A model generated the notes under the pieces. It ran no database searches. It was not told the DNA's origin and saw only the letters and a program-made list of their open reading frames with translations. Shown one piece after another: positions 3,396-62,415 of a DNA stretch of 64,000 nucleotides (the first letter of the stretch is position 1; every line of letters begins with the position of its first letter). A program made the position numbers and the translations under genes. Source of the DNA: Streptomyces sp. SW4 (GTDB lineage: Bacteria > Actinomycetota > Actinomycetes > Streptomycetales > Streptomycetaceae); the NCBI GenBank assembly GCA_003248315.1, contig QKWM01000004.1, positions 4,833,001 through 4,897,000 on the forward strand, written 5' to 3'.

Positions 3396-3914
3396 ATGGT
3401 GCGATACGCGGAACCGGGCGTGGTGGAGTGGGTCGAGTCGGGCGGCGGGCCGCTCGTCGCCGTACCGGAGACGGTGCTGCCGTTCTGGACCGGCGCCGAC
3501 GGCGAGGAGACGGCCTCCGACTACGACCGCGCCTGCGAGGTCGACGGGCACGTCGGACTCCTCCCGGTCGGCGACGCCACCGCCCTCGTCCTCGGTGACG
3601 AACCCGCCGCGACCGCCTTCCTGCCGGACCACGGCACCTTCGTCCGCTGGTGCGCCGCGGACGGCGAGGCCGAGGTGCTGGCGAGCGTCCCGGACGCGCT
3701 GCGCACCGCGGAGTGGGAGCCGGAGGTGCGCTGGGACGTGCCCGGCGCGGTGCGGCTGTTCGACGCGGCCTGGCCCGGCGGCGGACCGGACGGCACCGAC
3801 CATGTGACGGTGGCCCTGGAACCGGGCCGGTACGCGGTGCGCGCCGCCCATGTGCGTCCCGGGCCGGAGACCTGGCTCGGGCTCGTCCAGGTGCGGCGGC
3901 TGGGCCACCGGTAG
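3396..3914 (+). CDS. Imm21-like immunity family protein
   Basis: An intact 172-residue soluble acidic protein. Its opening (WVESGGGPLVAVPETVLPFW), the DYDRACEVDGHVGLLPVG segment and ALVLGDEP match my recollection of the Imm21 family, polymorphic-toxin immunity proteins that are common as stand-alone genes in Streptomyces. No toxin gene is visible beside it: the neighbours are a rhodanese and a short-chain dehydrogenase. There is no signal peptide or membrane segment. The cognate toxin, if any, is unknown, and the gene may have been retained for another role. Confidence 0.65.
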   Translation: MVRYAEPGVVEWVESGGGPLVAVPETVLPFWTGADGEETASDYDRACEVDGHVGLLPVGDATALVLGDEPAATAFLPDHGTFVRWCAADGEAEVLASVPDALRTAEWEPEVRWDVPGAVRLFDAAWPGGGPDGTDHVTVALEPGRYAVRAAHVRPGPETWLGLVQVRRLGHR

Positions 3915-3980
3915 CGCGGGGCGGGCGCCGCCGGCAAAAACCGTGTGCGCCGTTCCCGGCCGCCGGGCGATCATGGGCGG

Positions 3981-4823
3981 ATGCCGAGGCTTCCCCACCC
4001 CACCCCGAAGACCTGCGCCGCGACCCCCTGCCGCTGCGCGGCCGGACCGCCCTCGTCACCGGCGCCAGCCGGCGCGGCGGCATCGGCCACGCGGTGGCCC
4101 GCAGGCTCGCCGCGTACGGCGCGAGCGTCTACCTGCACCACCACGTCCCGCACGACGCCGCCATGCCGTGGGGCGCCGACCGGACCGACGACGTGGTCGC
4201 CTCCGTCCGCGGGGCGCTCGGCGACCCCGCCGCCACGGTCGCCGCCGGCCCGGAGACCTCTCCGACCCGGCCGCGCCCGCCGCCCTCGTCGCCACGGCCG
4301 CCGACGCGCTCGGCGGGCGGCTCGACATCCTGGTCGCCAACCACGCCCTCAGCGGCTCCGACGGCACGCTCGACCGGATCGACGCCGCGATGCTCGACGC
4401 GCACTGGGCCGTCGACACCCGGTCCGTGCTGCTGCTCGTCCAGGCCTACGCCCGCCACCGTGCCGCACTCCCCCGCGCACCCCCGGCGGGCGCGTGATGA
4501 TGATGACCTCCGGACAGGACATCGCCGGCGGCATGCCCGGCGAGATCGCCTACGCGCTGCAGAAGGGCGCGCTGGCCTCCATCACGCGCTCCCTCGCGAC
4601 GACCCTCGCCGAGCACGCCGTCACCGTGAACACCGTCAACCCCGGCCCCGTCGACACCGACTACATGTCCGGGGCCGACTACGACGCGATCGCGGCGCGC
4701 TTCCCGGCCGGGCGGTGGGGCATGCCCGACGACCCGGCCCGCCTCATCGCGTGGCTCGCCACGGACGAGGCGGAGTGGATCACCGGTCAGGTGATCGACT
4801 CGGAGGGCGGCTTCCGCCGCTGA
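3981..4823 (+). CDS. Short-chain dehydrogenase/reductase (SDR)
   Basis: A classical SDR of about 280 residues, probably NAD(P)H-dependent with unknown substrate. The cofactor motif appears as TALVTGASRRGGIGHAVARR (a TGxxxGIG variant), the structural motif as LDILVANHAL, the catalytic Tyr-Lys as YALQKGAL (YxxxK), and the C terminus as VNTVNPGPVDTDYMSG and ITGQVIDSEGGF. Breaks near 4000, 4250 and 4485 shift the frame three times, each repaired by restoring one base in a C or G run. The ATG at 3981 is therefore inferred across the first break. The segment before YALQK (MMMTSGQDIAGGM) carries the active-site Ser. Confidence 0.82.
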   Translation: MPRLPHPTPKTCAATPCRCAAGPPSSPAPAGAAASATRWPAGSPRTARASTCTTTSRTTPPCRGAPTGPTTWSPPSAGRSATPPPRSPPARRPLRPGRARRPRRHGRRRARRAARHPGRQPRPQRLRRHARPDRRRDARRALGRRHPVRAAARPGLRPPPCRTPPRTPGGRVMMMTSGQDIAGGMPGEIAYALQKGALASITRSLATTLAEHAVTVNTVNPGPVDTDYMSGADYDAIAARFPAGRWGMPDDPARLIAWLATDEAEWITGQVIDSEGGFRR

Positions 4824-4845
4824 ACGGCGGGGCCGCCGTCCCCGG

Positions 4846-6533
4846 TCACAGCCGCGCCAGCTCGTCCACCAGGTCGTCCAGGCCGAGCGAGCCCTGCGAC
4901 AGCGCGGCCATGTGCCAGGCCTTGAGGTCGAAGGAGTCGCCGTGGCGGGCGCGGGCCTTCTCACGGCCCAGCAGCCAGGCCCGCTCACCGAGCTTGTAGC
5001 CGATCGCCTGGCCCGGAATCGTCAGGTACCGGGTCAGCTCGCTCTCCACGAAGTCCGCCGGACGGCTGCTGTGCGCGCCGAAGAACTCCTGAGCCAGTTC
5101 GGGGGTCCACCGCTCGCCCGGGTGGAAGGGCGAGTCGGCCGGGATCTCCAGCTCCAGGTGCATGCCGATGTCCACGATGACCCGGACGGCCCGCATCATC
5201 TGCGCGTCCAGGTAGCCGAGCCGGTGCTCCGGGTCGGTGAGGAAGCCCAGCTCGTCCATCAGCCGCTCCGCGTACAGGGCCCAGCCCTCGGCGTTGGCGC
5301 TCACCATGCCGACGGAGGCCTGGTAGCGGGAGAGGTTCCCGGCGACGTGCGTCCACTGCGCCAGCTGGAGGTGGTGGCCGGGCACGCCCTCGTGGTACCA
5401 GGTCGACACCAGGTCGTAGACCGGGAAACGGGTCTGGCCCATCGTCGGCAGCCAGGTGCGGCCCGGACGCGAGAAGTCCTCCGACGGAGGCGTGTAGTAC
5501 GGCGCGGCGGCGCTGCCCGGCGGGCGATGCGCGACTCCACCTTCCGTACCCGCTCGGCCAGTTCGAAGTGGGTGCCGTCCAGCGTCTCGATCGCCTGGTC
5601 CATCAGGCCCTGGAGCCAGTCGCGGACCTCGTCCACACCCTCGATGTGCTTGCCGTGCTCGTCGAGATGGGCCAGCGCCACCCACGGCGTCTCGGCGCCC
5701 GGCAGGATCTTCTCGGCCTCCTTGCGCATCTCGCCCAGCAGCCGGTGGTACTCGGCCCAGCCATAGGCGTACGCCTCGTCCAGGTCGAGGTCGGTGCCGT
5801 TGAAGTAGCGCGACCAGCGGGCGTAGCGCTCCCGGCCGACCGTGTTCGGCGCGCCCTCGATCGCCGGCGCGTACACGTCCCGCATCCAGTCCCGCAGCTC
5901 CACCACGGCCGCCGTCGCCGCCCGGGCCGCCTCGTCCAGCTCGCCGCGCAGCGCCTCGGGCCCGGCGGCGGCGAAGTCCTCGAACCAGCCGCGGCCCTCG
6001 CCGGTGTCCGCCCACTCGCCGAGCTGCTCGACGAACGTCGCGGTCGGCCGCGGGGCCGCGAACAGCTTCCGCTCCAGGCCCTGCGCCAGGGACTCCCGGT
6101 AGCCGGCCAGGGCGGCGGGCACCGCGCGCAGCCGCTCGGCGACGCGTGCCCAGTCCTCGTCGGTCTGCGTGGGCGTCACCGTGAACACCTCGCGCACCGA
6201 GTGCGCCGGGGTCCCCATGTTGCCGACCGAGCGCAGCCCCTCCTGGGCCTCGTGCACGGCCAGCTCCGCGGTGAGCCGCTCGCGCAGCAGCCGGGCGCAG
6301 CGGCGCTCGACGTCACTGTCCCCGCCGGGCCGGCGCTCCGCCTCGTCCAGCCGGGCGAGCGTGGTCCGGGCCAGGGCGGCCAGCGCCTCCTGGCCGGCGG
6401 GCGAGAAGTCGGGCAGACGGCTGGAACTCTCCGGCACGCCGAGATACGTACCGGTCACCGGGTCGAGGGCGATGAGCTCGTCGACGTAGGCGTCGGCGAC
6501 CTCGCGGGGCAGCGGGCTCTTGGTCTCTGACAT
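4846..6533 (-). CDS. DUF885 family protein (putative metallopeptidase)
   Basis: A protein of about 560 residues of the DUF885 family, believed to be zinc-peptidase-like. The hallmark YHEGVPGHHLQLAQ sits near 5390, with GWALYAERLMDELG and REKARARHGDSFDLKAWH further on. No signal peptide is visible, so it is probably cytoplasmic. The ATG is at 6533 (MSETKSPLPREVADAYVDEL). One frameshift near 5520 splits it, repaired by one extra C. It converges with the SDR gene. The peptide substrate is unknown. Confidence 0.85.
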
Positions 6534-6611
6534 GCGGACATCCTGATATGGATACCGGTGCCGCGTCAGCCCGGTTCGCCGGGCCGGTTCCCGCGGGCGG
6601 CCCGATTTCGC

Positions 6612-7102
6612 TCATGGCGTGGCGGCCGGGGCGCCGGGCGGCAGCAGCGGCCCGCAGTCCCACTGCTGGAAGATCAGCCGCGTCTCGACGCGGGCCACCT
6701 CCCGCTGCGACGTGAACTCGTCCAGAACCAGCCGTTGCAGATCCGCCATGTCCGCCACCGCCACATGCACCAGGTAGTCGTCCGGGCCGTCAGATGGAAC
6801 ACGGTCCGCGACTCCGGCAGCGCGCGGATCCGCTCCACGAACGGTCCCACCAGCTCCCGCCGGTGCGGCCGCACCTGCACCGACAGCAGCGCCTGGAGTC
6901 CCCGGCCCAGCCTGGCCGGATCGAGCTGGAGCCGGTGGCCGAGGATCACCCCGGCGCGGCGCAGCCGGGCCACCCGGTCCAGACACGTCGAGGGCGCGAC
7001 CCCCACCTGCGCGGCGAGGTCGCGGTACGTCGTCCGGGCGTCGTTCTGCAACAGCCGCAGCAGATGGAGATCCACCGGATCCAGTTCGACAGACTCGGCC
7101 AT
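6612..7102 (-). CDS. Lrp/AsnC family transcriptional regulator
   Basis: A regulator of about 163 residues. The N-terminal HTH (LHLLRLLQNDARTTYRDLAA, then VAPSTCLDRVARLRRAG) is followed by a RAM domain with DDYLVHVAVADMADL. A frameshift near 6790 splits the RAM domain. The ATG at 7102 (MAESVELDPVDLHLL) lies 60 bp from the start of the divergent Cys/Met PLP enzyme. Lrp paralogues commonly control such lyases in actinomycetes, so it is a good candidate regulator of that gene; this is inference from arrangement. Confidence 0.85.
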
Positions 7103-7162
7103 GGGCCGAACGTAACACGCACCTCGGCGCCGCGGACCCGGCCGGTGTTCACCCTTCGGCCC

Positions 7163-8392
7163 ATGGACTCTGCGCGCACCCACACGTCACCGTCCGACGA
7201 CGCAGGCACCACCGCACCGGCCGCCGCCCCGACCCGGGCCCTGGCCACCGAGGCCGTCCACGCCGGCCGCGACGATCTCGCCCGGCAGGGACTGCACGCC
7301 CCGCCCATCGACCTGTCCACCACCTATCCCTCGTACGACAGCCGGGCCGAGGCCGAGCGCATCGACGCGTTCGCCGCCACCGGCGCCGACCCGGACGGCC
7401 CGCCGGTCTACGGACGGCTGGGCAACCCGACCGTCGCCCGGTTCGAGACCGCGCTGGCCCGGCTGGAGGGCACCGAGGCCGCGGTCGCCTTCGCCAGCGG
7501 GATGGCCGCGCTGAGCGCCGTGCTGCTGGCCCGCGGCGCCATGGGCCTCAGGCACGTGGTCGCCGTACGCCCCCTGTACGGCTGCAGCGACCACCTGCTC
7601 ACCGCCGGGCTCCTCGGCTCGGAGGTGACCTGGACCGACCCGGCGGGCATCGCGGACGCGCTCCGCCCGGACACCGGCCTGGTCCTGGTCGAGTCACCGG
7701 CCAACCCGACGCTCGCGGAGGTCGACCTGCGGGCCGTCGCCCACGCCTGCGGCTCCGTACCGCTGCTCGTCGACAACACCTTCGCCACGCCGGTCCTCCA
7801 GCGCCCCGCGGAGCACGGCGCCCGGCTGGTGCTGCACAGCGCCACCAAGTACCTCGGCGGTCACGGCGACGTGCTGGCCGGCGTGGTCGCCTGCGACGAG
7901 GAGTCCGCCGGGCGGCTGCGGCAGATCCGGTTCGCCACCGGAGGCGTCCTGCACCCGCTCGCCGGCTACCTGCTGCTGCGCGGCCTGTCCACCCTGCCGG
8001 TCCGGGTCCGGGCCGCCTCGGCGAACGCCGCCGACCTCGCGGGCCGGCTCGCGGCGGACCCGCGCGTCGCCCGCGTGCACTACCCGCGCATCGGCGGCGC
8101 GATGGTCTCCTTCGAGGTGCACGGCGACCCGCACGAGGTGATCCGCCGGGTACGGCTGATCACCCCGGCCGTCAGCCTGGGCAGCGTCGACACGCTCATC
8201 CAGCATCCGGCGTCCATCAGCCACCGCATCGTGGACGCCGACGACCGCCGGGGCGCCGGCGTCGGTGACCGGCTGCTGCGGCTGTCGGTGGGCCTGGAGG
8301 ACGTCGACGACCTGTGGGCCGACCTGGACCGGGCGCTGGGCGCCCGGATGGAGGCGGTACCGCTGCGCGAGGCCCTGTCCGGCGCCGAGTGA
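7163..8392 (+). CDS. PLP-dependent Cys/Met metabolism enzyme (methionine gamma-lyase / cystathionine gamma-synthase-like)
   Basis: An intact protein of about 409 residues of the trans-sulfuration family. Features are the [14 protein letters not shown] substrate/PLP motif, [45 protein letters not shown] and the PLP-lysine motif [15 protein letters not shown]. The C terminus ([19 protein letters not shown]) is typical. Between RVARVHYPR and GGAMVSFEV it lacks the roughly 20-residue stretch usual in MetB. The divergent Lrp gene suggests a catabolic (methionine gamma-lyase-like) role. The ATG at 7163 has no strong ribosome-binding site. The exact reaction is not resolved. Confidence 0.85.
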
Positions 8393-41336: not shown

Positions 41337-41819
41337 CACCGAAAGGCGGTACGCCGTTCGGGCCGTTTCGTCGCCGGACCGGCGCACACGGCGCCCCGGA
41401 CGCGGACGGCCGAGAACGGCCGAGAACGGCCGAGAAACGGCCGAGAAACGGCTGAGAACGGCGGGAACCGTCGAGAGCGGTCGAGAACGGCTGAGAACGG
41501 CCGAGGACCCGTCAACTTCCGGGGGTGGCGGCAGGGCGACCCGGGCCGAGCGCCGCTCGCCGTCCAGGGCACGCAACGCCCGCTCCAGGGTGGCCGCGTG
41601 CAGCTCCGTCTCGCCCCGGCGGTGCATCACCGCGAGCGCGTCCCGCAGCGCGGTGGCCCGCGCGACCAGGGCCTGTGCGGCGCGCAGTGCGCGGTAGGTG
41701 TCCCCGGGGCGGGCCGGGTTGATGCGGCCCACCAGGTCGACGACGTCGAGGTAACGGTCGATCAGCTCGGCCTCGGCACGGGTCAGGGCCGGCAGGGGCG
41801 GCGGCTCGGCGGGCAGCAT
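41334..41819 (-). CDS. Helical protein encoded directly downstream of clpP
   Basis: A protein of 161 residues that I do not recognise. The first 100 residues look fully helical (LTRAEAELIDRYLDVVDLVG, YRALRAAQALVARATALRDA, LHAATLERALRALDGE). The C-terminal part, coded by a 10-11 bp repeat (about 41405-41511), is Ser/Arg/Pro-rich (LSRFSAVSRPFSAVLGRPRP) and may be spurious if the real stop is hidden by a frameshift. ATG 41819 is 7 bp past the clpP stop with GAGGTGAG in front, so the two are coupled. A role with ClpP is inferred from position only. Confidence 0.6.
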   Translation of the reverse strand: MLPAEPPPLPALTRAEAELIDRYLDVVDLVGRINPARPGDTYRALRAAQALVARATALRDALAVMHRRGETELHAATLERALRALDGERRSARVALPPPPEVDGSSAVLSRSRPLSTVPAVLSRFSAVSRPFSAVLGRPRPGRRVRRSGDETARTAYRLSV

Positions 41820-50613: not shown

Positions 50614-50742
50614 CGTCCCGGTCAACGGACGCATTTCTCCGTTTATCGGATTGGCAAAGAAGTCCGGCCGCCCCTGTTCCCAGGGAACCCACAGCCACGA
50701 GGATCCCCGTACCTGTCGCAACGAAGTACGGGGAGTGCCCAC

Positions 50743-55434: not shown

Positions 55435-56654
55435 TCAGCAGGCCAGGACCTTCTCCAGGGTCCCCAGGGCCTCCCGCAGCTCCTCCTCGGTGATGGTCAG
55501 CGGCGGGCGATCCGGATCGTCGACCCGTGGGTGTCCTTGACCAGCACGCCCTCCCGCATCAGCCGCTCGCTGACCTCGCGGCCGGTACCGAGCGCCGGAT
55601 CGACGTCGACGCCGGCCCACAGACCGCGCGCCCGGAACGCGACGACGCCCTTGCCGGTCAGCGCGGCCAGCCCGTCGCGCAGCACGGCGCCCAGCTCCTC
55701 CGCCCGGCGCTGGAACTCGCCGGTCTCCAGCAGCTCCACCACCGCGGTGCCGACGGCGGCGGCGAGCGGGTTGCCGCCGAACGTCGAACCGTGCTCGCCG
55801 GGATGCAGCACACCGAGCACCTCCCGGCGCCCGACCACCGCCGACACCGGCACGATGCCCCCGCCCAGCGCCTTGCCGAGCAGTACCACGTCCGGCACGA
55901 CCGACTCGTGCTCGACGGCCAGGGTGCGTCCCGTGCGGCCCAGGCCCGACTGGATCTCGTCCGCCATGAACAGGCAGCCCGCGCGCCGGGTCAGCTCCCG
56001 CACACCCGCCAGATAGCCGTCGTCCGGGACGATCACCCCGGCCTCGCCCTGGATCGGCTCGATCAGCACGGCCGCCGTCGTGTCGTCGACCGCCTCCTCC
56101 AGCGCCGCCAGGTCGTTGTACGGCACGATCCGGAAGCCCGGCGCGAACGGGCCGAAGCCCCGGCGGGCCGTCTCGTCCGTGGAGAAGCCGACGATCGTCG
56201 TCGTCCGGCCGTGGAAGTTGTCCGCGGCCACCACGATCGTCGCCCGGTCGTCGGGCACGCCCTTGACGTCGTACGCCCACTTGCGGGCCACCTTGATGCC
56301 GCTCTCCACGGCCTCCGCGCCGGTGTTCATCGGCAGCACCATGTCGGTGCCGGTCAGGGCGGCCAGCCGCTCGGCGAAACCGGCGAGCCGGTCGTTGTGG
56401 AAGGCGCGCGAGGTCAGGGTCAGCCGGTCCAGCTGGCGGTGCGCGGCCTCGATCAGCGCCGGATGGCGGTGGCCGAAGTTCAGGGCCGAGTAGCCGGCCA
56501 GCAGGTCGAGGTAGCGGCGGCCCTCGACGTCCTCCACCCGGACGCCCTCCGCACGGGCGACGACCACGGGCAGCGGGTGGTAGTTGTGCGCGAGGACGGG
56601 CTCCTCGGCACGGATGAGCTCCGCCGAGCTGCGGGTGCGGGCGGGTGCGGTCAT
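55435..56654 (-). CDS. rocD: Ornithine aminotransferase
   Basis: A class III PLP aminotransferase of about 407 residues turning ornithine to glutamate semialdehyde. Motifs are YLDLLAGYSALNFGHRHPAL, MNTGAEAVESGIKVARKWAY, NFHGRTTTIVGFSTDETARR, FMADEIQSGLGRTGRTLAVE and PLP Lys in VVLLGKALGGGIVPVSAV. ATG 56654 overlaps the ddaH stop (ATGA). One missing C near 55505 separates the end (PPLTITEEELREALGTLEKV). Part of an Lrp-ddaH-rocD operon for arginine/ornithine use. Confidence 0.93.
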
Positions 56655-57469
56655 GAACGGATCTCCCGGATCTCCTGGGTGCAGCACTTGATGCCGCCAC
56701 CGGCTTTGTGGAACTCGGACATGTCGACGGGGACGGGGACGTAACCGCGGTCGGCCAGCCGTGCCGCCAGGCCGGCCGCCCCCGGTGAGATGAACACGTG
56801 GCGGCCGTCGGACACGGAGTTCAGCCCGAAGGCCGTCGCGTCCTCGCGGGTGGCGATCACCGCGTCCGGATACAGCCGCTCCAGCACTTCGCGGCTGCCG
56901 GCGAGAACGCCTCGGGTAGTACGCCACATTGTCCTCGTCCAGCACGAACAGCGCCGTGTCCAGGTGGTAGAAGTACGGGTCCACCAGCGTCAGGGAGATC
57001 ACCGGCGTCCCGAAGAACTCCTGCGCCTCGCGGTGCGCCTCGGGGTGGTGCGAAATCCCGTCCCGGCCAGGATCCACCGGCCGGCCGGGACGAGATCGCC
57101 CTCGCCCTCGCACACCGACTCCGGATGGTGGACGTCGAAGCCCTGGCCCTTGAACCACGCCTCGTAGGGCACGGACTCGGGGCGCCGCTCCGGCGCGTGG
57201 AACAGGGAGCCGAGGACCCGGCCCTCCACGACGACCGCGGCGTTCGCGGCGAAGACCATGTCGGGCAGGCCGGGCACCGGCGGGACGTGGTCGACGGTGT
57301 GGCCGTGCACACGGTAGGCGTCGACCAGGGCCTGCCACTGGTCCAGGGCGCGGATGACGTCGACCGGCCGGTCGGGACGCATCCACGGGTTGATCGCGTA
57401 CTGCACGGCGAAGTGTCTGGGTTCGCAGACGAGAAAGCGCCGCCGGCGCGGCACACGGGAGTCGGGCAC
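56651..57469 (-). CDS. ddaH: Dimethylarginine dimethylaminohydrolase
   Basis: A guanidino-group-modifying enzyme of about 273 residues producing citrulline (or ornithine precursors) from methylated arginine or arginine. Features are YAINPWMRPDRPVDVIRALD, MVFAANAAVVVEGRVLGSLF, HAPERRPESVPYEAW, EGEGDLVPAGRWILAG, VDPYFYHLDTALFVLDEDN (catalytic His) and GGGIKCCTQEIREIRS (catalytic Cys). GTG 57469 follows GGAGGA nine bases upstream. Breaks near 57050 and 56915. Confidence 0.9.
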
Positions 57470-57490
57470 AGAGGGGTTCCTCCGCTTCAC

Positions 57491-58111
57491 TCACGGTTGG
57501 TGACTGGGGGGTGACACCACGGTAGGAAGCGGGGCAGACGGGCGACAAGGAGGAAAGGCTGCGTGTTCGCGCAGCATCGCTGCGTTGTCGCCCAGGTCAG
57601 CGCAGGTCTGCTGCGTCCTGTGCGGGGTCCTCGGGAGCGGCGTTGCTGGCCCCGCCTCCGGACTGTCCGGCAGCAGATGGGACAGGACCATCACGCTGAT
57701 CGTCTTGCGGATGAACGGCTCCGTACGGATCCGTTCCAGCACCTCCTCGAAGTGCTCCACGTCCCGCGCCCGCACGTGCAGCAGCGCGTCCGCGCCGCCC
57801 GTGACCGTCATCGCCGCGGTGATCTCCGGATGGTTGCGCACCACCTCCGCCAGCCGTCGCGGCGGCGCCGCACCCTCGCAGTACACCTCCACGTACGCCT
57901 CGGTGCGCCAGCCCAGCGCCGACGGCTTCACCGTGGCCGTGAACCCGGTGATCACCCCGGTCTCGCGCAGCCGGTCCACCCGGCGCTTCACCGCCGTCGC
58001 GGACAGCCCGACGTCCGCGCCGATCTCGGCGAAGGAGGTCCTGGCGTTCGCCATCAGCGCGGTGACGATCTTCCGGTCGAGTTCGTCGAAGGGCACGGGC
58101 CTGCTGCTCAT
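57491..58111 (-). CDS. Lrp/AsnC family regulator of the ddaH-rocD operon
   Basis: An Lrp-type regulator with the N-terminal HTH (LDRKIVTALMANARTSFAEI, LSATAVKRRVDRLRETG) and a RAM domain (MTVTGGADALLHVRARDVEH). ATG 58111 gives MSSRPVPFDELDRK. The unbroken frame ends at 57491, just before ddaH; a one-base break near 57650 would instead end it at 57597 (ASNAAPEDPAQDAADLR), which looks more coding-like. It heads the operon and probably controls it in response to arginine or ornithine. Confidence 0.85.
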   Translation of the reverse strand: MSSRPVPFDELDRKIVTALMANARTSFAEIGADVGLSATAVKRRVDRLRETGVITGFTATVKPSALGWRTEAYVEVYCEGAAPPRRLAEVVRNHPEITAAMTVTGGADALLHVRARDVEHFEEVLERIRTEPFIRKTISVMVLSHLLPDSPEAGPATPLPRTPHRTQQTCADLGDNAAMLREHAAFPPCRPSAPLPTVVSPPSHQP

Positions 58112-58188
58112 GCGGGCACTGTATCCAGCGCAAACGTCCACGTCGGACACGTGTGCAGGCACGGGGATCGCCCCTACACTCCACCTTC

Positions 58189-58952
58189 ATGCTGCGCGCC
58201 CTGGCCGTCGACGACGAACGCCCCTCGCTCGAGGAACTCGTGTACCTGCTCAACGCCGACCCGCGGATCACCGCCGCCGAGGGCGCCGGCGACGCCACCG
58301 AGGCGCTGCGCCGCATCAACCGCGCGCTCGAGTCCGGCCCGGACGGCCCCGAGGCGATCGACGTCGTCTTCCTCGACATCCAGATGCCCGGCCTCGACGG
58401 GCTCGACCTGGCCCGGCTCCTCACCGGCTTCGCGCGGCCGCCGCTGGTGGTGTTCGTCACCGCCCACGAGGACTTCGCCGTGCAGGCCTTCGACCTCAAG
58501 GCCGTCGACTACGTGCTCAAACCCGTCCGCAGGGAACGCCTCGCCGAGGCCGTCCGGCGCGCCGCCGAGCTGAGCGGCACCGCCCTCGCGGGTGCCGCCG
58601 CGCACATCCCGTACACGAACCCGACCCCGACCACATCCCCGTCGAACTGGGCGGGGTGACCCGCTTCGTGCCCGTCGACGACATCACCCACGTCGAGGCC
58701 CAGGGCGACTACGCCCGCCTGCACACCCACAAGGGCAGCCATCTGGTCCGCATCCCCCTGTCCACCCTGGAGGAGCGCTGGCGCGCCCGCGGCTTCGTCC
58801 GCATCCACCGCCGCCACCTGGTCGCCCTGCGGCACATCGGCGAGCTCCGCCTCGACGCCGGAACCGTCAGCGTCCTGATCGGCACCGAGGAACTCCAGGT
58901 CAGCCGCCGCCACGCCCGCGAACTGCGGGACCTGCTGATGAGGAGGAGGTGA
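58189..58952 (+). CDS. LytTR-type response regulator
   Basis: A regulator of about 255 residues. The receiver has LRALAVDDERPSLEELVYLL, DVVFLDIQMPGLDGLDLARL (phospho-Asp), VFVTAHEDFAVQAFDLKAVD and YVLKPVRRERLAEAVR. The C-terminal LytTR DNA-binding domain (VTRFVPVDDITHVEAQGDYA, HLVRIPLSTLEERWRARGFV, RIHRRHLVALRHIGELRL) lies after a break near 58610. ATG 58189. Its stop overlaps the start of the small membrane gene; the kinase is three genes downstream. Confidence 0.9.
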
Positions 58953-59349
58953 CCCGTGCCCCGAACCCGGCCGAGCGCCGCGTCGTCGTCACCGGCCCGC
59001 CCCGGCGCGCCCGCTCCCACCACCGGCTCCGCCCGCGCGGACGGGACCCGCACGCCCCCGCGCCTACCGCCCCCGCACCGAGATCGACGAACAGACCACC
59101 CTCGGCCACACCTACGTGCGGTCCCTGATGCGCACCCAGCTGCGCGCCGCCCTCGCCGTCTGCGCGGTCCTGGTCCTGCTCGTCGGCCCGCTGCCGCTGG
59201 TCTTCGCCGCCGCGCCGGACGCCCGCCGCCTGGAGTGGGCGGTCCTCGGCTTCGGCCTCTACGCCCCGCTCGTCCTCCTCGCCCGCTGGTACGTGCGCCG
59301 CGCCGAGCGCAACGAACGCGACCTCGTCCGGCTCGTCGAGGACCGATGA
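58949..59349 (+). CDS. Small two-TM membrane protein of the symporter unit
   Basis: A protein of about 133 residues. An Arg/Pro-rich cytoplasmic N terminus leads to two transmembrane segments (LAVCAVLVLLVGPLPLVFAA and LEWAVLGFGLYAPLVLLARW) and ends RRAERNERDLVRLVEDR. It resembles the short accessory subunits (DUF485/DUF4212-like) found before sodium/solute symporters. GTG 58949 overlaps the LytTR stop (GTGA). A break near 59060 restores the frame. It is probably a subunit or stabiliser of the symporter. Confidence 0.7.
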
Positions 59350-59374
59350 ACGTCACGAACGCGACGCCCGCCCC

Positions 59375-61215
59375 ATGAACTCCAGCCACGCCGTCGCCGC
59401 CGTCGCCCTGGTCGTCGTCGCCACCGTCCTCGTCGGCGCCTTCGGCCTGCGCATCTCCCGCACCACCTCCGACTTCTACGTCGCCTCCCGCACCGTCGGC
59501 CCCCGCCTGAACGCCGCCGCCATCAGCGGCGAGTACCTCTCCGCCGCGTCCTTCCTGGGCATCGCCGGCCTGGTCCTGGTCCAGGGCCCCGACATGCTCT
59601 GGTACCCGGTCGGCTACACCGCCGGCTACCTGGTCCTGCTGCTGTTCGTCGCCGCCCCGCTGCGCCGCTCCGGGGCCTACACCCTGCCCGACTTCGCCGA
59701 GGCCCGGCTCGCCTCGCAGGCCGTCCGCCGCCTCGCCGGGGCCTTCGTCGTCGGCGTCGGCTGGCTCTACCTGCTGCCCCAGCTCCAGGGCGCCGGACTC
59801 ACCCTCACCGTGCTCACCGACGCCCCCGACTGGCTCGGCGGGGTGATCGTCGCCGTCGTCGTCACCGCCATCGTCGCCGCCGGCGGCATGCGCAGCATCA
59901 CGTTCGTGCAGGCCTTCCAGTACTGGCTCAAACTCACCGCGCTGCTCGTCCCCGCCCTCTTCCTGATCCTGGCCTGGCAGGGCGACGGCGCCCCCAGCCG
60001 CGCCTTCGACGAACCGGCCGCCTTCCGCGAGCAGCGCTCCGTCCGGGTCGAGGACGACCTCTCGCTGAAGCTGGAGGCCCCGCTCACCGTCGCCGTCGAC
60101 GGCACCGTGGACGGCCGCTCCCACGACGGCGCCCGCCGGCGCCTGCCGGCCGGCACGCACCGCATCGACGCCGGCACCCGCCTCACCTTCGCCGAGGGCG
60201 ACACCGTCCCGGCCGCCGGGCGCGGCGGCGACGACGCCCTGTCGCCCTCCCGCGCCGAGAGCCGCACCGACCGCCCGCTGTACGCCACCTACGGCCTGAT
60301 CCTCGCCACCTTCCTCGGCACGATGGGCCTGCCGCACGTCGTCGTCCGCTTCTACACCAGCCCGCACGGCGTCGCCGCCCGCCGCACCACCGTCGCCGTC
60401 CTCGGCCTGATCGGCGCCTTCTACCTGCTCCCGCCCGTCTACGGCGCCCTGGGCCGCCTCTACGCCCCCGAGCTCACCCTCACCGGGGACGCGGACGCCG
60501 CCGTCCTGCTGCTGCCGGAGCGGATGATCGGGGGAGTGGGCGGAGACCTGCTCGGCGCGCTGGTCGCGGGCGGCGCCTTCGCGGCGTTCCTGTCCACCGC
60601 CTCCGGCCTGACCATGGCCGTGGCCGGGGTGCTCACCCAGGACGTGCTGCCCTCCCGCGGCGTACGGCACTTCCGGCTCGGCACCGTCCTCGCCATGGCC
60701 GCGCCCCTCGCGGCGAGCGTCCTGGTGGGCGGGCTGCCCGTCGCCGACGCCGTCGGACTGGCCTTCGCCGTCTCCGCCTCCTCCTTCTGCCCGCTGCTCG
60801 TCCTCGGCATCTGGTGGCGGCGGCTGACCCCGCCCGGCGCGGCGGCCGGCATGCTGGTCGGCGGCGGCGCCGCGCTCGTGGCCGTCGCGGCCACCATGAC
60901 CGGCGTACCGGTGGGCGGCACGCTGCACGCCCTGCTGGCCTGGCCGGCGCTGTGGTCGGTGCCGCTGGGCTTCCTCACCATGATCCTGGTGTCGCTGGCC
61001 ACGCCGGGCCGGGTCCCCGCCGGGACGGCGGCGATCCTGGCCCGGTTCCACCTGCCCGAGGAACTGCGCACGGAGGAGCTGCGCGCGGACGAGCTCCACC
61101 CGCAGGAGCTGCACACGGACGAACCGCGCACGGAAGGACCGCGGGGCCGCGAGCCGCGGGAGCCGGGCGCGGGGAGCGGCGTACGCCGGACACGGACCCG
61201 GGGGTGCGGGCATGA
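59375..61215 (+). CDS. Sodium/solute symporter (SSF) with large extramembrane insert
   Basis: An SSF-family transporter of about 613 residues, in the monocarboxylate/acetate permease group. SSF features are SDFYVASRTVGPRLNAAAIS, GEYLSAASFLGIAGLVLVQG, TLPDFAEARLASQAVRRLAG and TFLGTMGLPHVVVRFYTSPH. Between QYWLKLTALLVPALFLILAW and YATYGLILATFLGTMG is an insert of about 95 residues with beta-like pattern. The tail has five-residue repeats (LRTEE, LRADE, LHPQE, LHTDE). The TGA at 61213-61215 is reached by a break near 61180 and overlaps the kinase ATG. Confidence 0.9.
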
Positions 61216-62415
61216 GCGGATTCCTGGCCGGGCTGTGCGTCGCCGCACTGCCCCTGCTCGCCGCCGGCTTCTGGCTGGGCCGGCGCACCGCCCGCCCCCA
61301 GAGCCCCGGCGACCTGGGCACCCCGTGGAGCACGCCACCTTCCAGACCCTGCACACCGCCTCGCTCGCCGCACCGCCGCTGCGCGCCGGACTGACCGAGG
61401 AGACCGCCCGCAAGTCGGCCCGCAAGCTCCGCTCCCTGCTGGGCACCGACGCGCTCTGCCTCACCGACGAGAAGGAGGTGCTGGTCTGGGACGGCGCGGG
61501 CGCCCACCACCGCACCGAGATCATGGAACGCCTCGCCGGCCCGCTGGAGACCGGCCGCGGCGAGGCCTTCCGCTCACCTGCGACACCCCCGACTGCGCGG
61601 TCCGCTGGGCCGTCGTCGCCCCGCTCACCGTGGACGACCGGGTGCACGGCGCCCTGGTGGCCTGCGCGCCCCGCGAGTCGGCCGTACTGGTGCGGGCCGC
61701 CGGGGAGGTGGCCCGGTGGGTCTCCGTCCAGCTGGAGCTGGCCGACCTCGACCAGTCCCGCACCCGCCTCATCGAGGCCGAGATCCGCGCCCTGCGCGCC
61801 CAGATCTCCCCGCACTTCATCTTCAACTCGCTCGCGGTGATCGCGTCCTTCGTGCGCACCGACCCCGAGCGCGCCCGCGAGCTGCTGCTGGAGTTCGCCG
61901 ACTTCACCCGCTACTCGTTCCGGCGCCACGGCGACTTCACCACCCTCGCCGACGAGCTGCACGCCATCGACCACTACCTGGCGCTGGTCCGGGCCCGCTT
62001 CGGCGACCGGCTCGCCGTCACCCTCCAGATCGCCCCGGAGGTGCTGCCGGTCGCCCTGCCCTTCCTGTGTCTGCAGCCGCTCGTGGAGAACGCGGTCAAG
62101 CACGGTCTGGAGGGCAAGTCCGACCGGTGCCACATCCAGATCACGGCGCAGGACGCGGGCGCCGAGGCCCTCGTCGTCATCGAGGACGACGGCGCCGGCA
62201 TGGACCCGGAGCTGCTGCGCCGCATCCTCGCCCGCGAGGTCAGCCCGTCGGGCGGCATCGGCCTGTCCAACGTGGACGACCGGCTCCGGCAGGTCTTCGG
62301 CGACGACCACGGCCTCGTCATCGAGACGGCCCCCGGCGCGGGCATGAAGATCACCGTCCGGCTGCCGAAGTACCAGCCGGGCGTCCATTCGGGAGGCCGG
62401 CTCAGCGGCCCCTGA
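61212..62415 (+). CDS. LytS-like sensor histidine kinase (GAF + His_kinase)
   Basis: A kinase of about 402 residues. One N-terminal transmembrane segment (GFLAGLCVAALPLLAAGFWL) is followed by a GAF-like domain (SARKLRSLLGTDALCLTDEK, VVAPLTVDDRVHGALVACAP) and the His_kinase domain with phosphoacceptor His in LRAQISPHFIFNSLAVIASF, the N-box LQPLVENAVKHGLE and DDGAGMDPELLRRI. Breaks near 61320 and 61575. Its start overlaps the symporter stop. It has no five-TM LytS sensor, so the symporter itself may be the sensor partner. Confidence 0.88.

Follow-up and report, generated by a model that had tools for sequence, protein, structure and literature searches.

What can be discerned about the role of a LytTR regulator, a small membrane protein, a symporter and a LytS-type kinase that are encoded side by side? 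The question is raised by positions 58189-62415 of a 64,000-nucleotide stretch of Streptomyces sp. SW4 (contig QKWM01000004.1, positions 4,833,001 to 4,897,000; hereafter the window), where four genes follow one another on the plus strand: a LytTR response regulator (RR), a small membrane protein (SMP), a symporter of the SSF family (SSF1) and a LytS-type histidine kinase (HK). The reading to which we lean, if only somewhat, is that of a monocarboxylate-responsive two-component module in which SSF1 and SMP would form the membrane input of HK, and RR would switch on monocarboxylate uptake. What carries it was computed directly: the four genes, their co-inheritance, an adjacent gene for the monocarboxylate transporter MctC and a conserved direct repeat.

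All four families and their order, as named in a preliminary description of this DNA, are seen in the window and conserved in relatives. RR matches the receiver (REC) domain PF00072 with 69 bits and the LytTR domain PF04397 with 75 bits, SSF1 matches PF00474 with 121 bits, and HK carries a PF06580 His_kinase and a HATPase_c domain; against the SSF1 profile, the SSF1 of this genome (G000) scores 891.6 bits. The parts of the unit, several of them placed by comparison with relative loci (L numbers), are as follows.

58189-58952, plus strand: RR, LytTR response regulator gene (PF00072, PF04397), with REC at 58189-58659 in one frame and LytTR at about 58611-58949 in another.
58949-59349, plus strand: SMP, divergent DUF485/DUF4212-like small membrane protein; two frames match one relative protein.
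59375-61075, plus strand: SSF1 symporter, the portion alignable with that of L033 (Pfam, relative alignment).
60020-60223, plus strand: predicted all-beta domain inserted in SSF1 between transmembrane helices (TM) 6 and 7, its position carried over from residues 216-283 of the L112 model.
61076-61215, plus strand: SSF1 tail of charged imperfect repeats, unaligned with L033 and ending at the HK start.
61212-62415, plus strand: HK, LytS-type histidine kinase gene in three frames, with breaks near 61325 and 61572.
61221-61289, plus strand: HK N-terminus, a predicted single hydrophobic helix (residues 4-26 in the L112 homologue).
61397-61674, plus strand: predicted GAF-like domain of HK (homologue residues about 63-155).
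61777-62013, plus strand: PF06580 His_kinase domain of HK, with the conserved His of SPHF at 61813-61815.
62068-62373, plus strand: HATPase_c domain of HK (Pfam).

Two overlapping junctions had been described. The GTGA at 58949-58952 is borne out, the RR stop overlapping a start whose position agrees with the N-terminus of SMP in a relative. At 61212 the string ATGA is present and starts HK, but the SSF frame has no stop there and stays open to 61840. Among relatives of the order RR-SMP-SSF1-HK, a 4-bp SSF1/HK overlap is in frame at 27 of 32 and at 11 of 16 loci, in two sets that share at least one contig. L067 was left out of this count and of HMM building; the SSF1-kinase fusion that this locus of genome G010 seemed to offer is an artefact of a frame break in its SSF gene.

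How widely are the four genes kept together? A 4.4 kb DNA query found a strong match to the unit in 49 of 61 genomes of the genus, G000 included in both numbers, and only a weak one in the other 12; conservation of this extent is not chance. When domains were checked in 17 picked genomes with the unit and 12 without, a PF06580 kinase was present in 17 of 17 and 0 of 12. A LytTR domain occurred in none of the 12 and in 16 of the 17, as well as in G000, the sole miss being G046, where RR is cut by a contig end. Beyond the genus, a kinase alignment scan yielded a set of 80 loci, kept out of a larger number of matches, from many actinobacterial genera. With SMP called at a score of at least 28, HK, RR, SMP and SSF1 lie on one strand at 66 of these 80, seven of which (L143, L150, L160, L163, L170, L176, L181) have more than 1 kb of other sequence between RR and SMP. 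Two gene orders occur, RR-SMP-SSF1-HK and, in L048-L051, HK-RR-SMP-SSF1 (SMP being unmatched in L049). At 13 of the 80 loci SSF1 is not near the kinase; a contig end lies within 3 kb in five of them, and for the remaining eight (L135, L145, L146, L152, L161, L178, L180, L188), each with at least 6 kb on either side, SSF1 is found elsewhere in all eight genomes.

The same association holds in a class sample of 394 genomes, in which the top three to four first-look candidates per genome were scored, the kinase at E<=1e-20 and SSF1 at E<=1e-90. Raw counts, which ignore phylogeny, gave 202 genomes with the kinase and 195 with SSF1: both in 193, the kinase only in nine, SSF1 only in two (72% and 78% complete) and neither in 190. 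SSF1 is represented in 62 of the 137 genera and the kinase in 64. When all candidates of the nine kinase-only genomes were rescored at E<=1e-60, one of them gained an SSF1 (G367, just beyond the first threshold). The co-conservation that the preliminary description had proposed to test is there, with kinase and symporter near one to one and their clustering kept through two gene orders; SSF1 is nearly, though not strictly, obligatory for kinase-bearing genomes. Lone RR genes of the type found in the unit stand about 53-57 kb from the unit in L053 (G020, about 3650-4459) and L055 (G016, 3646-4446). In G016 the contig extends 1.4 kb ahead of SMP-SSF1-HK (L054) and no RR was detected in that part, so the distant RR of L055 may be the partner.

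The kinase and the regulator are of familiar types. A REC-LytTR regulator together with a PF06580 kinase places the pair in the LytS/LytTR class, and HK and RR would be cognate partners joined by phosphotransfer. The best named model for RR is BtsR (NCBIfam NF008677), at 147.9 and 133.5 bits and thus below its cut-off of 246. That the kinase lacks a multi-TM sensor, as had been noted from the window, agrees with the model of the L112 homologue, which has one N-terminal helix, and with Pfam, which at E<=0.01 finds a Lyt sensor domain in 0 of 14 kinases; L048 and L050, which are permuted copies, lack even this helix. Behind it, the order of helices and strands in the same model is that of a GAF-like domain (block pLDDT about 88-96), for which Pfam support is weak among the 14 kinases (GAF_3 in three, GAF in two, GAF_2 in two), and Foldseek searches with HK return mostly kinases and phytochromes. 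No STAC domain was detected by Pfam in the 14 kinases at E<=0.01 or in the window SSF frame at E<=1.

What might such a pair regulate? The neighbourhood of the unit in relatives offers an answer. At 31 of the 80 loci the fetched stretch holds an mctC gene, called at >=45% identity to MctC and usually accompanied by a canonical DUF485 gene; it lies mostly downstream of SSF1, and divergent from HK in Arthrobacter-type loci. This count replaces a score-based one of 30 loci for the second SSF gene (SSF2), with L156 and L163 added and L148 dropped because its second SSF match is a fragment of a broken SSF1. The one protein tested, the adjacent SSF2 of L131, is MctC by the NCBIfam model (832.8 bits, cut-off 670). 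In addition, acs lies near the unit in L142, L156 and L189, and in L190 (Microbacterium oleivorans, 4199-8134) cstA and a ybdD-like gene directly precede HK, and cstA is itself preceded by a LytTR-type site; this CstA scores 799 bits against a cut-off of 1188, and the ybdD-like gene was named by eye. Together, mctC, DUF485, acs and cstA are genes that serve to take up or activate short organic acids.

Alignment of the regions upstream of DUF485-mctC (L159 was left out for a wrong small-protein pick) revealed conserved, paired repeats that resemble ACCGTTCGGCGC and have a 21-bp period. For LytTR sites, the excerpted text of PMC11347149 gives 9-bp direct repeats in pairs, typically with 10-13 bp spacing. 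By their 21-bp period the repeats before DUF485-mctC are of LytTR type and make predicted RR sites. The preliminary description had proposed a search for such repeats upstream of the unit: relatives do have them, chiefly upstream of DUF485-mctC, whereas the search of the window unit yielded none. The generic LytTR consensus, assumed by us as a scan pattern, has seven matches with no more than one mismatch in 1.10 Mb, six of them at the repeats before DUF485-mctC.

A matrix was then built from 16 sites, the region and motif width having been picked with all loci in view; L165, the second of two overlapping sites of L130 and the first overlapping site of L144 were excluded from training, and the search expression returned no site for L167 and L171. 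Training sites score 30-40, while among random 600-bp stretches, up to 400 of them, the top score is 19.1; at 18 or more there are 39 matches in the 80 loci (1.10 Mb), the 16 training sites included, and none in one mononucleotide shuffle. In held-out tests, a matrix trained on divergent loci placed the best site of the locus in the region upstream of DUF485-mctC in 12 of 14 other loci, and the reverse training did so in 13 of 16 divergent loci. The misses were L177, L186, L165 and L166 (the last two at rank 2), and L148, with its miscalled SSF2; in L129, L191 and L144 the top match is displaced by one repeat. The Arthrobacter group also has a conserved GTGA-N6-TCAC element, which we take to resemble a CRP/GlxR-type site; in L151, L153, L158, L164-L167 and others it lies between the repeat and DUF485.

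Sites of this type are also found elsewhere. In L044, L056, L063, L064 and L127, sites scoring 16.6-24.3 stand ahead of SMP/SSF1, after RR where it is present (L056 holds no RR, and SMP is unmatched in L044, L056 and L063), a layout that would suit autoregulation of SMP-SSF1-HK. Just past the unit, Streptomyces loci carry LytTR-type sites scoring 20-21 at 9583 in L124, 5495 in L126 and 8663 in L065 (minus strand), those of L126 and L065 between a gene of the sigma-70 family and a divergent lipoprotein-like gene; the sigma factor was tested in L126. Scanning G000 with the pattern also turned up repeats of the CGGCCGTTCTCGG type in tandem, and an element with matches on either strand, at window positions 41410-41461 and 50618-50649; a cluster of tandem repeats at G000:C1:468749-468831 was considered and set aside.

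Is SSF1 itself a further MctC? Its relation to the MctC/DUF485 pair, the monocarboxylate transporter of Corynebacterium, seems distant: against the MctC model (NCBIfam NF058657) it scores 191.6 and 200.3 bits, below the cut-off of 670, and it passes the cut-off of no NCBIfam model listed. The AlphaFold2 model of the L112 homologue (mean pLDDT 80.5) has an SLC5 fold, with SGLT, CHT1, NIS and SiaT structures as Foldseek neighbours, and an all-beta insert at residues 216-283. This insert is found in 13 of 22 aligned SSF1 rows, two of them shortened, and is absent or nearly so in nine, so that it is not essential; it would lie on the outer side of the membrane, given the 13-TM, N-out topology that we presume for SSF1. 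In TM8 the motif is FLST in SSF1 and FATILAV in MctC. Here a Ser-Thr pair of SSF1 aligns with the Ser-Ser pair of vSGLT, a position that we take to be the Na2 site and at which MctC homologues have FATILAV. SMP appears to be a very distant relative of DUF485/DUF4212. Of 21 homologues, 17 match DUF485 at E<=1 (best 3.1e-5) and nine match DUF4212 (best 3.9e-6), and the SMP profile meets canonical DUF485 with E 4.5e-5 and probability 69; the window SMP piece (13.3 bits) and that of L112 (15.2 bits) stay below the PF04341 gathering score of 28. In all, SSF1-SMP looks like a diverged relative of the DUF485-MctC pair, perhaps its duplicate.

Our characterization suggests a mechanism in which a transporter paralogue, SSF1 together with the DUF485-like SMP, would have been retained as the membrane input of the kinase. 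Occupancy of SSF1 by substrate or Na+ would be signalled to HK, HK would phosphorylate RR, and RR would bind the paired LytTR half-sites and activate the adjacent DUF485-mctC, sometimes acs or cstA, in many actinobacteria. The signal would be of the acetate/pyruvate class, and SSF1 would be the receptor of HK. Uptake of monocarboxylates (acetate/pyruvate) is what the unit most likely controls, SSF1 being a transporter-like input in its own right. The proposal of a sensory transport module, already put forward from the window, thus gains from the near one-to-one occurrence of SSF1 and kinase, from their clustering, from the lack of a multi-TM sensor and from a separate MctC that is likely regulated, but a kinase-regulator pair without SSF1 has turned up as well.

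This pair is among several observations that weigh against a symporter as the input. Absence of the symporter from genomes keeping the kinase and regulator had been named as what would refute that role. The eight loci with a distant SSF1 answer it favourably, but at E<=1e-60 no SSF1 was found in eight of the 202 kinase-bearing genomes. Seven of these hold only remote kinases (E 1e-78 to 1e-95), a split noticed after the fact. The eighth, G270, has a strong kinase (1e-151) in an HK-RR-acs cluster (L310, G270:C10, 2645-7314), whose acs is an acetate-CoA ligase at 1033 bits against a cut-off of 657, and SSF1 was not found in the genome at that threshold; the HK-RR pair can therefore exist without SSF1. 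Upstream of HK-RR in L310 lies a large ORF with weak similarity to copper nitrite reductase (142 bits, cut-off 296). Moreover, the GAF-like domain could sense a cytoplasmic ligand and is an equally legitimate sensor, and no fusion of SSF1 with the kinase was found in the relative loci examined. On the regulatory side, the genus itself offers little: the repeat occurs in one of 31 mctC-type loci examined (L268, with mctC next to the unit), and unit-bearing genomes account for 20 of the 31; G037 and G043 (L289, L287) have mctC beside or near the unit and no site; and in the window unit and its near relatives no LytTR-type site scored 13 or more. Scans of G000 with the pattern gave 84 matches at one mismatch and 1012 at three, where the reversed pattern gave 24 and 714; no target was singled out among the matches listed. 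In most Streptomyces-type genomes searched, mctC lies away from the unit.

The explanation that best withstands the evidence after our own, and one that we consider possible though rather doubtful, is that SSF1-SMP is a second monocarboxylate transporter regulated by HK-RR, the kinase sensing an intracellular metabolite through its GAF-like domain. The fold of this domain speaks for it, as do the Ser-Thr pair retained in SSF1, the sites ahead of SMP/SSF1 in five loci and the HK-RR-acs cluster of G270. Yet SSF1 stays with the kinase even at loci whose apparent target is a separate MctC, and it is present in nearly every kinase-bearing genome of the class sample; a transporter that was simply a target ought to show more frequent loss or replacement.

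Less probable still, to the point of being unlikely, is that the unit of the window species has been rewired or is decaying, its frame breaks being real and the unit a pseudo-operon there. As the sequence stands, RR occupies two frames (break at about 58583-58612), SMP likewise two (break within about 59029-59056) and HK three, and the lack of a LytTR-type site in the window unit would fit as well. However, base-by-base comparison with 12 relative loci, 11 of them distinct (L035 and L113 are one contig), shows that, relative to all 12, the window lacks one base at each of two places, near 61325 and near 61572, and that it differs by a net frame change at 58583-58612 from all 11 loci that cover RR (10 distinct). 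Wherever both parts were found in relatives, the two RR domains share a single frame (37 of 37 loci), as do the GAF region and the kinase domain of HK (36 of 36). The assembly, in four contigs, has a completeness of 83.4%, and in this genome the DUF485 gene beside mctC and two further SSF genes are broken too, with mctC intact (frames read by eye). The breaks are thus likely to be indel errors of the assembly, since RR and HK are each continuous in relatives and since both the completeness and the other broken genes point the same way. On the minus strand at 55497-58162, divergent from RR, the window holds genes for a Lrp-type regulator, an amidinotransferase and an ornithine aminotransferase (named by eye), the latter two apparently frame-broken as well. 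Adjacency to the Lrp gene was considered as a feature of the unit and set aside, as it is kept in the closest relatives only, judged by match extents.

That SSF1 is a passive hitch-hiker, a neighbour by inheritance with no functional link to HK-RR, is highly improbable: strong vertical inheritance is likely and the co-occurrence counts disregard phylogeny, yet the association outlasts two gene orders and the separation of HK-RR from SSF1 within genomes, and spans 62 (SSF1) and 64 (kinase) of 137 genera.

How does a two-component module with a symporter as its input compare with known systems? In E. coli, BtsS/BtsR and YpdA/YpdB are pyruvate-responsive LytS/LytTR pairs. The unit shares with BtsS/BtsR a PF06580 kinase and a LytTR regulator whose best named model is BtsR; it differs in that RR stays below the BtsR cut-off, a multi-TM Lyt sensor was not found, and a symporter and a small subunit belong to the unit. 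In the Uhp system, a transporter-like receptor (UhpC), a kinase (UhpB) and a regulator (UhpA) control the paralogous transporter UhpT. This is the arrangement we propose here, with SSF1 in the putative receptor role and a paralogous working transporter as the target; the Uhp transporter and receptor are major facilitator proteins, unlike SSF1, and kinase and regulator are of other classes.

A further likeness is to the SLC5/STAC histidine kinases, among them CrbS/CrbR and CbrA (PMC5715377) and RpuS (PMC9100948). In CrbS/R, too, an SLC5/SSF protein is tied to a kinase, and its regulon includes acs and DUF485-actP (PMC5715377, same excerpt), genes matched by mctC, DUF485 and acs here. In contrast to CrbS, CbrA and RpuS, symporter and kinase are separate genes, a STAC domain was not found, the kinase combines PF06580 with a GAF-like domain, and a LytTR protein serves as regulator. 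With no fusion, no STAC and other kinase and regulator classes, the unit lies outside this class. In P. fluorescens, activation by SLC5 kinases is described as not dependent on transport through the SLC5 domain (PMC5715377). A database survey lists no proteins combining SSF with HisKA in Gram-positives and, in Actinobacteria, SSF with HATPase_c, GAF and PP2C only (PMC7918813, section 5.1.1). Tentatively and with somewhat less than even confidence, SSF1-SMP may be a duplicated DUF485-MctC pair that was made the dedicated, unfused membrane receptor of a LytS kinase which is itself almost soluble. On this view the receptor would be a UhpC-like transceptor of independent SLC5/LytTR origin, and the unit an actinobacterial counterpart of CrbS/R, governing how monocarboxylates are taken up and activated in roughly half of the genomes in the class sample (193 of 394).

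Among the open PubMed Central (PMC) papers listed, judged mostly by title and the start of the abstract, none describes the unit; none links LytTR with a symporter and acetate in Streptomyces, with a solute symporter, or with a symporter in Actinobacteria, and LytTR together with an acetate symporter appears in one paper, on Geobacter. Its parts have been listed in S. coelicolor. There, in the passages available, the orphans include the kinase SCO1217 and the LytTR regulator SCO1220 (PMC9739842), SCO1218 is termed a transmembrane transport protein (PMC5537264), and SCO1220 and SCO1221 are regulator genes with a common promoter region, SCO1222 being an amidinotransferase (PMC3293853). Gene numbering and neighbours match the order in the window, and SCO1217 and SCO1220 are probably the HK/RR pair of the unit.

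If the proposal is true, short organic acids are sensed in actinobacteria by a symporter-coupled system of their own, built in separable parts. As receptor, kinase and target transporter are different genes, signalling by occupancy can be set directly against signalling by transport in experiment. In S. coelicolor, the unit would pair two proteins listed as orphans, SCO1217 and SCO1220.

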